A stretch of DNA of 39,777 nt from Kiritimatiellia bacterium (GTDB lineage: Bacteria > Verrucomicrobiota > Kiritimatiellia > RFP12 > UBA3636): positions 1-39,777 of the forward strand of contig JAGCJJ010000087.1 in the NCBI GenBank assembly GCA_017648065.1, read 5' to 3'. The translations under genes and the position numbers were made by a program. The notes under the pieces are model-generated. The model saw only the letters and a list, made by a program, of their open reading frames with translations, did no database searches and was not told where the DNA came from. Positions 14,252 to 20,519 of the stretch are shown in pieces (the first letter of the stretch is position 1; every line of letters starts with the position of its first letter).

Positions 14252-14460
14252 ATAAAATGCAAGAAAACAGCTAGGAAGAGCTATGGAGTGGCAGGAGTAA
14301 GTGTGGGGGCAAAAAGTGATGTCGCGACTGCTCCTGCACCTCTCACAACCGAAGTATAACCAGTTTATTTTAGATAAATAAATTTGTCCCCACGGTCTCC
14401 TGTGTCTCCATTGTCCCCTAAGCGCTCAAAATTTTATATTCGCGCTAACGAATTAAATTT

Positions 14461-14488
14461 AGCTAATAGGTAATAGTGAATAGGTAAT
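14461..14488. repeat. 7-bp tandem repeat, four units, inverted relative to 50-84
   Basis: The in-phase units are AGCTAAT, AGGTAAT, AGTGAAT, AGGTAAT. Their reverse complements ATTACCT and ATTCACT are the units of the array at 50-84. A CTCC/GTCCCC-rich stretch lies nearby in both places. Confidence 0.55.
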
Positions 14489-14526
14489 AAATAAATAATA
14501 AAAACTTATTGTCTTATGAGTTAAGA

Positions 14527-14567
14527 TTTTACGCAATGCGGGCGTGCAAAGCACACATTGCGTAAAA
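14527..14567. other. Long perfect stem-loop, 12-bp arms
   Basis: The arms TTTTACGCAATG (14527-14538) and CATTGCGTAAAA (14556-14567) are perfect complements. The 17-nt loop contains a second small stem, GTGC-AAA-GCAC. It sits just beyond the terminator stem in the direction of the operon, so it may reinforce termination or be a separate structure. Confidence 0.6.
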
Positions 14568-14598
14568 AAAATTAGCAAGGCAATGGTACCTTGCTAAT
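14564..14598 (-). terminator. Rho-independent terminator of the four-gene operon
   Basis: Reading the minus strand, ATTAGCAAGG and CCTTGCTAAT (14571-14598) form a perfect 10-bp stem around an 8-nt loop, followed at once by a run of T's (14564-14572). It lies about 270 nt past the amidohydrolase stop codon, so the hairpin array at 14627-14731 falls inside the transcribed 3' region. Confidence 0.7.
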
Positions 14599-14626
14599 GC
14601 TTAAATAATTAAACTTTACCGCATAT

Positions 14627-14731
14627 ATTGCATTGCAATGCTTCATATGCCACCGGCATGCTTCATGGTGCTACGCACCGCTTCATAGCGCTTGCGCTGC
14701 TTCATCTAAATTCGGCTCCTGCCGAATTTAG
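14627..14731. repeat. Array of five small hairpins separated by an invariant GCTTCAT heptamer
   Basis: There are five self-complementary units: ATTGC-ATT-GCAAT, ATGCC-ACC-GGCAT, GGTGC-TAC-GCACC, AGCGC-TT-GCGCT and CTAAATTCGGC-TCCT-GCCGAATTTAG. Exactly GCTTCAT lies between each pair (14640-14646, 14660-14666, 14680-14686, 14699-14705). The stems differ completely in sequence yet each pairs perfectly, while the 7-nt linker never changes. The period is 19-20 bp for the small units. Minus-strand RNA from the upstream operon would carry ATGAAGC linkers. Function is unknown. Confidence 0.8.
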
Positions 14732-14867: not shown

Positions 14868-15953
14868 TTAGTCGAGATATTTCTGAGCAAGTTTTTTGAT
14901 TTCTTGCACTGTATTTTCTGCTGTAATTGTAGGCAGATATTTATCAATATATGCCTTCAATGCTGCCTTGTTGATTGGCTTTGGATTTACAGATACACGA
15001 CGCTCAAAATTCTTGTAAAGAATATTTTCAGCAGCCTCATCAGGAAGCTTTAATCCTGTTAATGGTTTATCATCAAAAGTAGGGTTGACCTCATCTGTTG
15101 TAATAAAACGATATAGTCTATCCATACACCAAATTGGGAAACGTGCTGGCCAAGGATGTGTTCCATCTGTACCAACAGAGATTCTGTTACTATTCTTTAT
15201 AAAGAACTCACGATAAAAATCATGATTATTTTCAAAAGAGAAATACATTTCTGTGCCTGGAGTAATATCAACATTCAAATTTGGATATTTATCAAACAAT
15301 GCTTGAAGTTTCTCAGGCTTCTCTCCGCAAAAATAGAAATGTGCAAATGTAATAGCAATATTAGGATTTTTCTCTAAAATCGCCTCTGCTTGTCTATAAA
15401 GCTCTTCATGTGTAGCAAATGACCCATCTCCATAGTACCAGCCTATCTTAATTCTATCTGGTGTTGCTAGCGCAGGATCCCAAAACTCAATAGGGTCATT
15501 AACATGAAATACAAGATGTGTTTTATTCTTTTCTACTTCTGAATAAAAACGCATAAGCTCAGGATGAAGCAAGTTCTTACCAATTCGTTTATGATAATCT
15601 GGCTTTCCTTCCAACATCTTTATTCCATCAAATCCAATCTCCATTAACTCTTTATATTGAGTAACGTAATCAAATCCTTCTTCCAATTTCTCTGGAATTA
15701 CTACTCCAAAATGCTCTAAACAAGCATGCGCAAACACATCTGGATGTGCAATTTTATAAAAAGCACATTGAATATTGTTTGCAGCAGATGAAATAGAATC
15801 TGGTCCAGATTTTATATGTGGAATTGCACAAATGTTGTAGCTTCTAATACCAATATCATCACGATATTTCTCAAATGAATCAATAAAATAACCCTCTTCT
15901 CCACTAAATGCCTCTATGTGAAGATGTCCATCTATTACTTTTTCTATTTTCAT
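14868..15953 (-). CDS. Amidohydrolase-2 family metal-dependent hydrolase
   Basis: This 361-residue protein has the marks of the Amidohydrolase_2 (PF04909-type) TIM-barrel family. The paired metal ligands are H10 and H12 (DGHLHIE), with further likely ligands H150 (FHVNDP), H205 (FAHFYFCGE) and D263 (GTDGTHPWP). There is no signal peptide, so it is cytoplasmic. It is the last gene of the operon that includes the NCS1 permease and a phosphoribosyltransferase-like protein, so hydrolysis or decarboxylation of a nucleobase-like ring is plausible but not shown. A TAGGA ribosome binding site lies next to a 16-bp stem-loop (15964-16001). Confidence 0.8.
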   Translation of the reverse strand: MKIEKVIDGHLHIEAFSGEEGYFIDSFEKYRDDIGIRSYNICAIPHIKSGPDSISSAANNIQCAFYKIAHPDVFAHACLEHFGVVIPEKLEEGFDYVTQYKELMEIGFDGIKMLEGKPDYHKRIGKNLLHPELMRFYSEVEKNKTHLVFHVNDPIEFWDPALATPDRIKIGWYYGDGSFATHEELYRQAEAILEKNPNIAITFAHFYFCGEKPEKLQALFDKYPNLNVDITPGTEMYFSFENNHDFYREFFIKNSNRISVGTDGTHPWPARFPIWCMDRLYRFITTDEVNPTFDDKPLTGLKLPDEAAENILYKNFERRVSVNPKPINKAALKAYIDKYLPTITAENTVQEIKKLAQKYLD

Positions 15954-15963
15954 ACTGTTCCTA

Positions 15964-16001
15964 TTTGTCAGTAGAGAAGTTCACCCTTCCCTACCGACAA
16001 A
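15964..16001 (-). promoter_or_regulatory. Intercistronic 16-bp stem-loop touching the ribosome binding site
   Basis: In minus-strand RNA all 16 positions pair, including two G-U pairs that would be A-C mismatches on the other strand, around a GGUGAA loop. The stem ends directly at UAGGA, the ribosome binding site of the amidohydrolase gene, and no U-run follows. It lies between the permease stop (16028) and the amidohydrolase start (15953). It may stabilise a processed mRNA end or control translation. Confidence 0.6.
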
Positions 16002-16027
16002 ATTCTTTTTATAAAATAAAATTTATA

Positions 16028-17428
16028 TTAGTTGTGCTTACCCTTACGTCCAACATTTGCCCCTAAAATTACATAAACAACAAGTGTTGTCAGCATTGCA
16101 TTAATTGCAGGAAGGCCCATCTTGCACCACTCACCTACACATGGAATATTTACATAACCAAAGCCCATCAGGCCAACCAATGAACCTAATGCCCAAGCAA
16201 TCACTGCACTAATATTTACCTTGGCAAATCCATGCTCGCCATATGGCTTATACTTACCACGGTTGATAATAAAGAAATCTGTAATAAGCAATGCACCTAC
16301 AGGTGGTAGGAATGTATTCAAAATATTCAACCAACCACAGAAATTGTCATACAACCAAATAGCTGCAAGTGTTCCAATTATACCATTAACCAATACTAAA
16401 TACTTCTTTGGCAGCTTTGTAATATTTGACAAGCCCAAACCAGATGTGTAAAGAGCATTATCATTTGTTGTCCAAATATTCAAGCCTAGCACAATAATAG
16501 CTGCACCAAGCAAGCCCTGTGCCTTTAGTACGATTGAAATATCACTGATTCCCCAAACCATTGCTCCTGCTGCACCAAAGAAGAACATTAGCGAATTACC
16601 AATGAAAAATGCAAGAGCTGTTGTTGAAACTGCAATCTTTGAATTGCGAGAGAAACGAGCAAAGTCAGGTGTGCAAGAACCACCAGAGATAAATGAACCA
16701 ATTGCAATTGAAATTGCTGCTGCCATTGTAAGCTGCATACTTGCTTCTGGTGTGTAGCTCTTCATCAATTCCCAGCCATTAGCTACGCCTGCTGCAGTAA
16801 TTGCGTCAACCTTGTCAACAAACATTGCACAATAAGCAGAATAACAACCCAATACCGCAATTGATGGTACAGCAATAATACTGATAATTGAAAGTGCCTT
16901 AATTCCCCAGTATGCAGTACTTGTCATAATTAAACCTGATGCTAATACAATAATGTATAGCAAACGAGCTGGCAAATCTACTTTATCAAATGCAATTCTG
17001 ACTGTTTCACCACCCAATATCCAAGTACCCTGTAAGCATGGCAAATCATTTAGTGCTATTGCTGTAGGGATAGCAAACATTGCAACACCTACACCAAACC
17101 AACCAATCTGTGTGAATGCAAGTGCTGAAGATGGTATAAATGAACCATAAGAACCAAAGGAATAACGAGATAACAAATGAACAGACAAACCTGTTCTTGC
17201 TGACATCAATGCAAGCAAGGATGTGTAAACACCAAGAATTAAGTTACCTACTGTTACTGCAATAATAAACTGCTTTAAGCTTAGACCTGCACCAAGATTT
17301 CCACCTGCCCACATACTTGCAGAGAAGAAGGTGAAGCCCATCATAATTACAAACATCGACCAGAAACCACGCTTTTGTGACTCTGCCACAGATGTTAATG
17401 CAAAATCATGATCATTATTATTACTCAT
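16028..17428 (-). CDS. NCS1-family nucleobase permease (CodB-like)
   Basis: This is an inner-membrane transporter of 466 residues with about 12 hydrophobic segments. The N-terminal pattern WSMFVIMMGFTFFSASMWAGG, then SARTGLSVHLLSRYSFGSYGS and IGWFGVG, matches cytosine/purine/allantoin permeases of the nucleobase-cation-symport-1 family, especially the CodB branch. A later TTNDNALYTSGLGLSNI segment is also typical of this family. It lies 17 nt after the phosphoribosyltransferase-like gene and shares its operon, which supports uptake of a base that is then phosphoribosylated. AAGGA motifs precede the ATG. The exact base cannot be assigned. Confidence 0.88.
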   Translation of the reverse strand: MSNNNDHDFALTSVAESQKRGFWSMFVIMMGFTFFSASMWAGGNLGAGLSLKQFIIAVTVGNLILGVYTSLLALMSARTGLSVHLLSRYSFGSYGSFIPSSALAFTQIGWFGVGVAMFAIPTAIALNDLPCLQGTWILGGETVRIAFDKVDLPARLLYIIVLASGLIMTSTAYWGIKALSIISIIAVPSIAVLGCYSAYCAMFVDKVDAITAAGVANGWELMKSYTPEASMQLTMAAAISIAIGSFISGGSCTPDFARFSRNSKIAVSTTALAFFIGNSLMFFFGAAGAMVWGISDISIVLKAQGLLGAAIIVLGLNIWTTNDNALYTSGLGLSNITKLPKKYLVLVNGIIGTLAAIWLYDNFCGWLNILNTFLPPVGALLITDFFIINRGKYKPYGEHGFAKVNISAVIAWALGSLVGLMGFGYVNIPCVGEWCKMGLPAINAMLTTLVVYVILGANVGRKGKHN

Positions 17429-17445
17429 ATCCTTGTTATTCCTTT

Positions 17446-18441
17446 CTATCTTTTTAATATTTTATCCATAGCACCGATTTGCTCAAGTGCTATAGTGCGT
17501 AAATCTTGTTTGCCAAAACGTGAAGAATCTAAATCTGGGAAGCGCTCCTCAACCAAATCCTTAAATGTCATGCCTGTCTCAGACAGCTTAAGAACCTGTG
17601 TCCAGTACTCCAGAACATCCTCAGCATATTCATTTATCCAAAATGCACGAGAACCTGCATCATAAATTGTGCAGCGCTCAATTGGATAGCTTGCTTTCTC
17701 ATATTGTGATTCAATAAACTCTGGAGCCATAAGGCTTCCCCACCGAACAAGATCTGTACCAGGCAAGCGAATTGTCAAAGGTGTATTTTTATCTGGAACG
17801 ATGAAGCGTCCCTCTAAATAAATTACAACCGTACGCTTGAAATTAGGGAAGGTTGCACGACAACGCTCATCAAGGCGTTGGAATATTTCCTCTGTCTTGA
17901 TACCGCCATAGGTGAAGAAATAGATATTTCTTAAATCGGTCTTATGCTCTACTGCTGCATCAATCAGCTCGTTAAAGCCATATTCAAGGCTTGTTCCTGT
18001 AGCAACGACATCACCAATATAAAGAGATGTAGCACATGGGAAATATAGCTTTTTATAGCTATTTTCCGTAATATGCCATGTACCATCAATTGGAGATTGT
18101 GCTCGCTGTGCACTCAAGAAACATGTGGTATGATAATTCCAACCATACGCATCTGCCAATGCATCACGTAAGCCAAAATTTAAACCTCCGCGCAAGATAT
18201 TTGCTACCATTGCATCTGCTTCTGTAACCCCATCAAGCGGAAGCATCTTTAGCACTTCTGTGCATGCTTTTTGTAATAGTTTTGTATATTCTATTCCGCA
18301 GACCTTTGGATCATTACAAATTGCTCTTGTATATGGTGTAGTGGCAATATATGCCTCTACACGACCAAAACCTGGAGCAATTTTATATATTGCGCTATCA
18401 TTCTGCGCCACAACCTTATCTAATTTGAATTGGGATGGCAT
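17446..18441 (-). CDS. Phosphoribosyltransferase-like protein, 331 residues
   Basis: The middle of the protein looks like a type I phosphoribosyltransferase: NILRGGLNFGLRDAL (81-95) resembles the segment before the catalytic loop, and SLYIGDVVATGTSLEYG (139-155) resembles the PRPP-binding motif. In that motif the first of the usual two acidic residues is Gly and the second is Asp. At 331 residues it is longer than uracil or purine salvage enzymes, with about 150 extra C-terminal residues that I do not recognise. GAGGT lies 3 nt before the ATG, a short spacing. It sits between the GH36 gene (35 nt) and the NCS1 permease (17 nt), so salvage of the imported base onto PRPP is the natural guess. 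The specific family is not identified. Confidence 0.65.
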   Translation of the reverse strand: MPSQFKLDKVVAQNDSAIYKIAPGFGRVEAYIATTPYTRAICNDPKVCGIEYTKLLQKACTEVLKMLPLDGVTEADAMVANILRGGLNFGLRDALADAYGWNYHTTCFLSAQRAQSPIDGTWHITENSYKKLYFPCATSLYIGDVVATGTSLEYGFNELIDAAVEHKTDLRNIYFFTYGGIKTEEIFQRLDERCRATFPNFKRTVVIYLEGRFIVPDKNTPLTIRLPGTDLVRWGSLMAPEFIESQYEKASYPIERCTIYDAGSRAFWINEYAEDVLEYWTQVLKLSETGMTFKDLVEERFPDLDSSRFGKQDLRTIALEQIGAMDKILKR

Positions 18442-18476
18442 AAGACCTCGTTTATATATTTTTAGATTAGAACAAA

Positions 18477-20519
18477 TTAAAAATTGATAGTAAGCTCACA
18501 ATTTGCAGGAAGCTCAATACTTAGCTTATCTTCTGTCCAAGCAAAATCACTTGCAACGCCATTAACAAGTACTGCACTTGGCTTTGTGGCAGAGTAAGCA
18601 ACAAAGCAACCATTACCATGAAGTTTCATAGAGACAGAACCATTTGCTTGCCACTCTAGCTTCTCAATTGCACCTAATGTATTGAACATATTTACTAAAC
18701 CAATTGGAGCAAAGCCATTTTCAATTGGAGATAGTGTCAACAATTCAAATTCGTATGGTGGCAATGACATATCCATTGAATCACCGCGCTTAATTGTTGT
18801 TAACTCTTGGCGGGCATCACTCCAGCAAGCATATGTCTTACCTGTATCTGCAAGCTCTTCAACATCTGCAATATCAAAGCTGCAATCAGATGTTTGTGTG
18901 CAACCCTCTTTTGGAGAAACCATAGAGAAGAATGAACACATTGTTCCATAATTAAATGGAGTAACAAGTCCCAAAGGTGCGCTACCTTCCATCAAATCCA
19001 TAAATACAGAACAAGTCATTGCTCGTGCCGGTGCTACTGCTCGTGGTGTTGTGCCATCAGCAAATACTGTACGCTTTAGCACAGAAGCATCATGCTTACC
19101 AGGCTCATCAGCGAAATACATTGGGCCACCTGAAATTGCTCTTGCAGCTGCATGATACTTACCTGTGGCATGGTCAGAAAGGAACATATCCCAATCCATC
19201 CATAAGAAATTACCAAACCATGTAGCTGTCATTGCGTTTGTATACAAATGCAATGCATGGGAAGCTGGTTCATTAGGGAAATAATCATCTGATGAACGAG
19301 TAATATTATTCTCCATAGAGTTATAGAACACTTCTGGAGCATGCGCCATACATGTAATGAGGTTATTATTAAAATATTTCTTTGTTGTTTGATTCATAGC
19401 CTCACGCATTTGGTTAAAGCGCTTTACTCTGCCACCAAAACCAGAAGAAAGGAAGGTCAATGATGCTTGGTTATCAATCTTTACACCATCAATACCACAT
19501 TCTGCCAAATGTGAATGGTATGCTTCATAGAATTTTGCAAAATCTACTGGAATTGATGATAGCAAGCCCTTCTGCCAATCGCAAATGCTATTATCGCAAT
19601 AACGAAGCACTGTCTTATCTGCAAGCTCTGAATTTGGGAACAAATCCTTTGCTACACCCTGCCAATAACCGCACACAGCATGCCAAACCATAAAGGTATC
19701 AATGCTTGTAAGCTCCTTTACTTTGGCAACAAATTCTTTCATGCTGCCAAACTTTGCATTACCATCCCAGCCGACAAGTACATTACCACCTGTCTTAAAT
19801 GGAGCAACATCCTGCCAACCATCATCAAGGATCAAGGTGCGTGGCTCAATACCAACATCCTTAAGTGTTTGTAATCCCTTGAGCACCTTCTCTGCACTTA
19901 CCTCTTGATAAAAAGCATTCCATGTGCACCACCCCAGTTTCTTAGCAAACTCAGGATATTCCTTATCCTTACGCAGTACCGCTGTAGGCTTAAAGCGATT
20001 TACCTCTTCTGCTGCCTGATTGATAATCTCAGGCAAATTATTGCCATTGATAATAAATGCACCAACACAAGGCTCAACCAATGTATATGCATCACCAGTT
20101 TCACCAAAGAAATTGAAAGCTGGCTCTGTTGGATTGCGCTTCTCACGAGGCATTGGTTTAGGATTCATATAGATGCATGCATTATCAGATGGGATTGCAA
20201 CAATAAATGTATATGAATTGTCCTCATGTGCAATAGCAAGCCATGTAATCTGATTTTTTATATCTATTGTTGGATCTCCGCCAAATGGAGAAAACCAATA
20301 TGGAGTATCTGGACGTAAGTGGCACCCACCCAACCCTTTAGCAGCAATAAATGCGCCTAGATTCTGCAATGTAATTGGGCCATCATTCTCAGGGAAATTG
20401 ATTTTTAGAAATGCACCTGCTTGTGTTTCTATTGGGGCTACTGAAAATCCACCATTAATTGATTTGATTATTGGTTTATCGTTAAGAAATAAAATATCAT
20501 CAACAATTTTTGCATTCAT
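18477..20519 (-). CDS. GH36 alpha-galactosidase / raffinose-synthase-like (Sip1) enzyme
   Basis: It is predicted to act on alpha-galactosides by hydrolysis or transfer. Of 680 residues, the N-terminal beta-sandwich covers about 1-180 and the TIM barrel about 190-520. LGWCTWNAFYQEV (195-207) and LILDDGWQDV (229-238) are the Sip1/raffinose-synthase signature. D349 in DGVKIDNQ is the expected nucleophile, and an aspartate in TRSSDDYFP (D411 or D412) the acid/base. No signal peptide is present, so the enzyme is cytoplasmic. It is the first gene of a four-gene operon with phosphoribosyltransferase-like, permease and amidohydrolase genes. GGAG lies 10 nt before the ATG. The family is clear; the substrate is not, and the neighbours hint at something other than raffinose. 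Confidence 0.88.
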   Translation of the reverse strand: MNAKIVDDILFLNDKPIIKSINGGFSVAPIETQAGAFLKINFPENDGPITLQNLGAFIAAKGLGGCHLRPDTPYWFSPFGGDPTIDIKNQITWLAIAHEDNSYTFIVAIPSDNACIYMNPKPMPREKRNPTEPAFNFFGETGDAYTLVEPCVGAFIINGNNLPEIINQAAEEVNRFKPTAVLRKDKEYPEFAKKLGWCTWNAFYQEVSAEKVLKGLQTLKDVGIEPRTLILDDGWQDVAPFKTGGNVLVGWDGNAKFGSMKEFVAKVKELTSIDTFMVWHAVCGYWQGVAKDLFPNSELADKTVLRYCDNSICDWQKGLLSSIPVDFAKFYEAYHSHLAECGIDGVKIDNQASLTFLSSGFGGRVKRFNQMREAMNQTTKKYFNNNLITCMAHAPEVFYNSMENNITRSSDDYFPNEPASHALHLYTNAMTATWFGNFLWMDWDMFLSDHATGKYHAAARAISGGPMYFADEPGKHDASVLKRTVFADGTTPRAVAPARAMTCSVFMDLMEGSAPLGLVTPFNYGTMCSFFSMVSPKEGCTQTSDCSFDIADVEELADTGKTYACWSDARQELTTIKRGDSMDMSLPPYEFELLTLSPIENGFAPIGLVNMFNTLGAIEKLEWQANGSVSMKLHGNGCFVAYSATKPSAVLVNGVASDFAWTEDKLSIELPANCELTINF

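Follow-up and report, generated by a model that had tools for sequence, protein, structure and literature searches.

What process sets several unlike hairpins between copies of one invariant 7-mer? The window, by which we mean the whole 39,777-nucleotide stretch of DNA analysed, raises this question at positions 14627-14731. Here, five perfect palindromes of 12-26 bp each are adjacent, with GCTTCAT exactly between every neighbouring pair (Table 1). All stems pair perfectly and four of four linkers are exact, as originally described. The setting first given for the array, between the last gene of a four-gene operon and its terminator, was also confirmed. Four minus-strand ORFs (20519..14868) are followed by the array and then by a terminator-like hairpin (14598-14571). 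Note that this hairpin, outside the array, is the region's only terminator-like site; none of the array hairpins forms an intrinsic terminator (a hairpin with a T run). Taken singly, GCTTCAT motifs show no enrichment in the window, with 15 present where 10.8 would be expected. Beside the array are a AATAGTGAATAGG tandem stretch (14460-14497) and a CATTGCGTAAAA hairpin (14527-14567). Each is a separate dispersed repeat that also occurs at other loci.

Table 1. Parts of the hairpin array and adjoining features in the window
Feature	Position	Strand	Remark
Terminator-like hairpin and T run, beyond the array	14571..14598	-	Hairpin, then T run
Lead-in ACCGCATAT	14618..14626	+	Type A element; in most type A copies, with small changes, directly before hairpin 1
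Hairpin 1, ATTGC-att-GCAAT	14627..14639		ATTGC/GCAAT in 49 of 57 copies
Linker GCTTCAT (minus strand, ATGAAGC)	14640..14646	+	Exact
Hairpin 2, ATGCC-acc-GGCAT	14647..14659		Loop mostly GNA in other copies
Linker GCTTCAT	14660..14666	+	Exact
Hairpin 3, GGTGC-tac-GCACC	14667..14679		Perfect stem
Linker GCTTCAT	14680..14686	+	Exact
Hairpin 4, AGCGC-tt-GCGCT	14687..14698		Most compensatory variants of any stem in the family
Linker GCTTCAT	14699..14705	+	Exact
Hairpin 5, CTAAATTCGGC-tcct-GCCGAATTTAG, long end hairpin	14706..14731		End often adjoins a gene stop codon in the family
Last gene of the upstream operon	14868..15953	-	3' end faces hairpin 5

Type A copies in the genus share stems and stem order

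We scanned for linker pairs, defined as two GCTTCAT motifs 8-34 nt apart, with the reversed pattern as the control. The original prediction had been staked on an excess in such a scan. An excess is what the window's own genome (G000) yields, with 54 pairs against 0 for the control. Two genus-mates have about 215 (G006) and 24 (G007), again against 0, while 16 genomes from the family's other genera gave 0 or 1 match apiece. G006 matches record JAFPBK01 (Kiritimatiellae bacterium RGIG990, cattle rectum).

At most places in G000 the scan finds the same element, type A: ..CCGCATAT-[ATTGC nnn GCAAT]-GCTTCAT-[ATGCC nnn GGCAT]-GCTTCAT-[GGTGC nnn GCACC]-GCTTCAT-[AGCGC nnn GCGCT]-GCTTCAT-[CTAAATTCG..CGAATTTAG]. 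The five stems occur in identical order in many copies of two species of the genus; a third has fewer. Arrays of G007 largely carry other stem sets (GCTCATTTATGAGC, AGCACGCATGTGCT, GGCATGCAATGCC, ACGGCAAAGCCGT). Modules have been lost from some copies and are reordered in one (L267). The stems had been called unrelated and freely varying. They do differ from one another, but each is conserved at its own position in full copies. Free variation does not apply within this genome, where order and sequence are the same (32 full copies, two species); it applies between lineages, where the linker is constant and the stems differ yet pair. The idea that new palindromes are grown between fixed 7-mers is not supported within this genome. 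Since type A stem order and sequence are common to dispersed copies, we conclude that the array is copied as a block.

Immediately to the left of many type A copies stands a further hairpin array, whose linker is TAACTGGG; the window copy is without that part. This further array (for example, L277, about 1817-1990) combines the fixed TAACTGGG linker with a fixed GTCCYC loop and the stems GTGTAGGAC, CTGTAAGAC and CRGCATGGC.

Genes within 100 nt of the hairpin 5 end present their ends to it in 18 of 19 cases in the genus. The hairpin 1 side has no gene-end bias, and the overall orientation of neighbouring genes is mixed. Selection against insertion near promoters could account for part of the 18 to 1 bias.

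At the G006 site orthologous to that of the window's array (L294), where the gene has 78% DNA identity, a type A array again lies behind the stop codon. All its linkers and stems 1 to 4 match the window copy exactly, and the loops differ. Comparing G006 with G000, sampled as about 0.9 Mb of stretches, some of them overlapping, we found six orthologous sites with the array in G006 and none in G000 (flank identity 78-98%), and others with the array in both. Their flanks are too rearranged and diverged for a precise junction to be read, and we found neither a clean empty site nor a duplicated target there. Several copies are close to contig ends in these metagenome-assembled genomes (MAGs), so the repeats may break assemblies.

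Stems keep pairing as loops drift

Full copies were aligned (32 copies, two species, 116 columns), and 98.2% of pair cells are paired. Loops drift while the stems keep pairing. Because the copies are related, three further counts are of non-independent events: 22 double-sided changes, most in hairpin 4, versus 6.8 after shuffling and 0 or 1 in slid controls; 23 G-T (G-U) versus 21 A-C mismatches, with no strand asymmetry; and an excess of reverse-complement loops (135 versus 28.9 in hairpin 1, 26 versus 14.1 in hairpin 4). The original view that stems vary yet stay paired is supported in that paired positions change together.

Coupled change of this kind also speaks for an alternative that we consider unlikely. 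Here, the array is a structured RNA element, kept at transcript 3' ends (of tRNA operons too), that protects, processes or terminates the RNA, with AUGAAGC/GCUUCAU linkers serving as protein sites or pairing partners. The gene-end bias beside hairpin 5 points the same way. The equal G-U and A-C mismatches do not, and nor does the mixed orientation of neighbouring genes. Furthermore, judged by pair agreement with the predicted fold, just one of 32 copies has the hairpin chain as its minimum-energy RNA structure. Selection on structure, as originally proposed, is therefore not favoured at the RNA level. Arms may also be kept alike at the DNA level: PMC8604942 reports that template switching between arms leads to arm homogenisation as well as spacer inversion. 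Gene conversion between copies could contribute too.

Most testable Lentisphaeria arrays lie behind tRNA genes

Relatives were found by pattern scan, followed by a filter for palindromic spacers. Among 388 genomes of the phylum, many linker pairs occur only in the window's genus and in families f42 and f48, which include Lentisphaeria MAGs. The latter carry hairpin arrays linked by GCTTCAT/ATGAAGC, with stems other than those of type A. Within f42, genus g80 contains array-rich as well as array-poor genomes. Similar arrays in other gut genomes had been anticipated, and were found here and in one Clostridia genome.

In Lentisphaeria, 25 of the 30 testable arrays (those with enough upstream sequence, after three opposite-strand duplicates among 33 listed were removed by hand) have their start no more than 90 nt past a tRNA gene of the same strand. 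The tRNA genes concerned have at least nine specificities within this one class. The plan is tRNA-CCA, a T-rich/A-rich hairpin, ATGAAGC, a closing stem, GCTTCAT-linked hairpins and then ATGAAGC-linked hairpins. The closing stem covaries (CGTCAGGC/GCCTGACG, CTGAAAAGGC/GCCTTTTCAG, CTGTCAAGGC/GCCTTGCCAG). The CGTCAGGC of some copies is part of a paired stem and alternates with CTGAAAAGGC. The outer stem has a paired fraction of 0.78, versus 0.58 when shuffled, and 0 of 2000 shuffles reached 0.78. This covarying stem favours the RNA element described above, as does the location of arrays after many tRNA genes, on the same strand and in several genera. Such steady placement could reflect a retained function, and a purely RNA-based role is possible for these tRNA-anchored arrays, whereas it is not favoured in the window's genus.

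Where the RNA gene is tRNA-Val, tRNA-Ala or tmRNA, the hairpin at the junction repeats the end of that gene in mirror form (CACCATTTTTGCC..GGCAAAAATGGTG). At seven loci (L344, L365, L368, L370, L372, L089 and L300) the hairpin at the junction of tRNA or tmRNA and array mirrors the gene 3' end (CACCATTTTT..AAAAATGGTG), as though the target had been copied backwards. One array (L349) contains a 21-bp unit in four identical tandem copies.

Of the array-less tRNA genes read in these genomes, most end in CCA and a T run, and other hairpins are often inserted there. A tRNA-Arg gene of G034 (L382) is followed by a different hairpin array with a CTTCAC-like linker, and several other tRNA genes of G034 and G079 carry other hairpin-rich inserts. 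Behind a tRNA-Pro gene (L070, 7065-7470), about 280 bp is inserted, flanked by a duplicated tRNA 3' half. Such duplication is the usual mark of tRNA-targeted integration.

Arrays in Clostridia and on a phage fragment

One Clostridia genome (G400) has the same linker with other stems. Of the three loci read, two follow tRNA genes and the other has a terminator-like hairpin next to it. In Clostridia the array lies past an intrinsic-terminator-like hairpin, which argues against the RNA element. No further array with palindromic spacers was found in 391 sampled genomes of the class.

A 7.3 kb phage fragment from IMG/VR (L235) has four GCTTCAT-linked hairpin arrays, also with other stems. The two that read in the ATGAAGC sense follow the stops of its large minus-strand ORFs at a distance of up to about 110 nt; the remaining two are upstream of ORF starts. 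Judged from the translations, the fragment has terminase- and portal-like ORFs. Viral spread was considered and rejected: among viral-contig matches this fragment alone passed the palindrome filter, and the window copy had no blastn match in phage or plasmid collections.

Candidate movers and comparison with described repeats

Dispersed palindromes are common, and what identifies the known REP families is either a constant tag of 4 nt or the sequence of the palindrome. The arrays resemble REP, BIME and REPIN elements in being short palindromes with many intergenic copies and a constant unpaired motif by each hairpin (PMC3733652, PMC8266576). Like the arrays, REPs are mostly near gene ends, some of them in mosaics with other repeats, and perfect palindromes about as short as these are among the REPs reported (PMC3733652, PMC8266576). 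The high copy number and extragenic palindromes expected of REPs are also found here. The differences are that GCTTCAT/ATGAAGC is the linker in all types, in place of the GTAG or CGTC tag of the REP super-families, and that several different palindromes stand in fixed order, anchored to tRNA genes in Lentisphaeria. No array type has an unpaired GTAG or CGTC tag at one end; the CGTCAGGC of some Lentisphaeria copies lies in the paired closing stem.

A RAYT (Y1) transposase is reported for GTAG REPs, and CGTC REPs are without one (PMC3733652, PMC8266576). The arrays could be REP/BIME members moved by such an enzyme, and Y1_Tnp genes are indeed present in the genus (one in G000, one in G006, three in G007), and the arrays are themselves short palindromes, dispersed between genes, that share an unpaired motif. 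Besides the missing tags, no array lies within 1.5 kb of the Y1_Tnp loci read in these three genomes. In Lentisphaeria, Y1_Tnp matches are missing from 12 of the 22 array-rich genomes, several of these 12 being 94-98% complete. With neither linkage nor co-occurrence, we rejected a RAYT mover and regard REP membership of this kind as very improbable. An integrase-type element was also rejected, since ORFs downstream of the tRNA arrays looked, by eye, unrelated to one another.

Growth in place, by a polymerase or repair process that adds linker and snapback units beside a hairpin (a terminator or tRNA trailer) and so makes new palindromes between fixed 7-mers, would suit the constant linker with stems that differ between lineages, the Lentisphaeria and Clostridia arrays that begin next to either a long hairpin or a mirrored tRNA end, and the identical units of L349, but is highly doubtful because genus copies share stem order and sequence, needing block copying, and no source for the 7-mer is known.

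Other families were compared. BOX elements of Streptococcus pneumoniae are likewise modular, hairpin-forming and dispersed, with a variable number of internal modules (PMC3049150). Module loss, duplication and reordering all occur in the arrays. The comparison is one of architecture, and the modules here are 19-21 bp palindrome-linker units with a 7-mer constant across two phyla. In Methanopyrus kandleri, roughly half the tRNA genes are followed, at about 10 bp, by a palindromic motif (PMC5217627). The likeness is a palindrome just behind many tRNA genes; the difference is that one sequence-conserved motif in one archaeon stands against bacterial multi-hairpin arrays with fixed linkers. MITEs are also small, non-coding, structured and multi-copy, but for these arrays we found neither terminal inverted repeats of a known transposon nor, at the diverged orthologous sites, a target duplication. 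With Rfam 15, the window region had no match over the gathering threshold, a point against an RNA element, and six relative loci matched tRNA and tmRNA only. In open-access literature we found no paper on GCTTCAT palindromes, on REP with Lentisphaerae, or on such arrays by name. The earlier view that no named element fits agrees with these searches.

Discussion

Our data suggest that the array in the window is probably a single copy of a non-coding repeat, dispersed in the genome and built of several hairpins, acting as a non-autonomous mobile palindromic element (REP/BIME/BOX-like) that is copied as a block. We infer that an enzyme acting in trans would copy the whole array as DNA. The enzyme would recognise the hairpins together with the GCTTCAT/ATGAAGC linker, and insertion would occur beside 3' ends or existing hairpins. 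Stems would need only palindromy, and so could drift between lineages while the linker stays. That the linker is the sole constant sequence across lineages would follow if any hairpin can be recognised along with it. Perfect palindromes may in part be maintained, and loops could be flipped, through switching of template between arms or through conversion from other copies.

A wider proposal is more tentative, and we would not yet lean on it. The arrays may belong to a mobile family spanning gut phyla, with the 7-nt linker as sole conserved sequence and palindromy as sole other constraint. In such a family, a structure-reading, non-RAYT enzyme would insert arrays in fixed orientation beside tRNA or gene 3' ends, or terminator hairpins.

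In two phyla the 7-mer is the same although stems have been replaced without loss of pairing, unlike the recognition of REPs by tag or palindrome. Hence, these arrays provide a case in which to examine how palindromes stay perfect, be it by selection, template switching or conversion, and they point to an undescribed mover.
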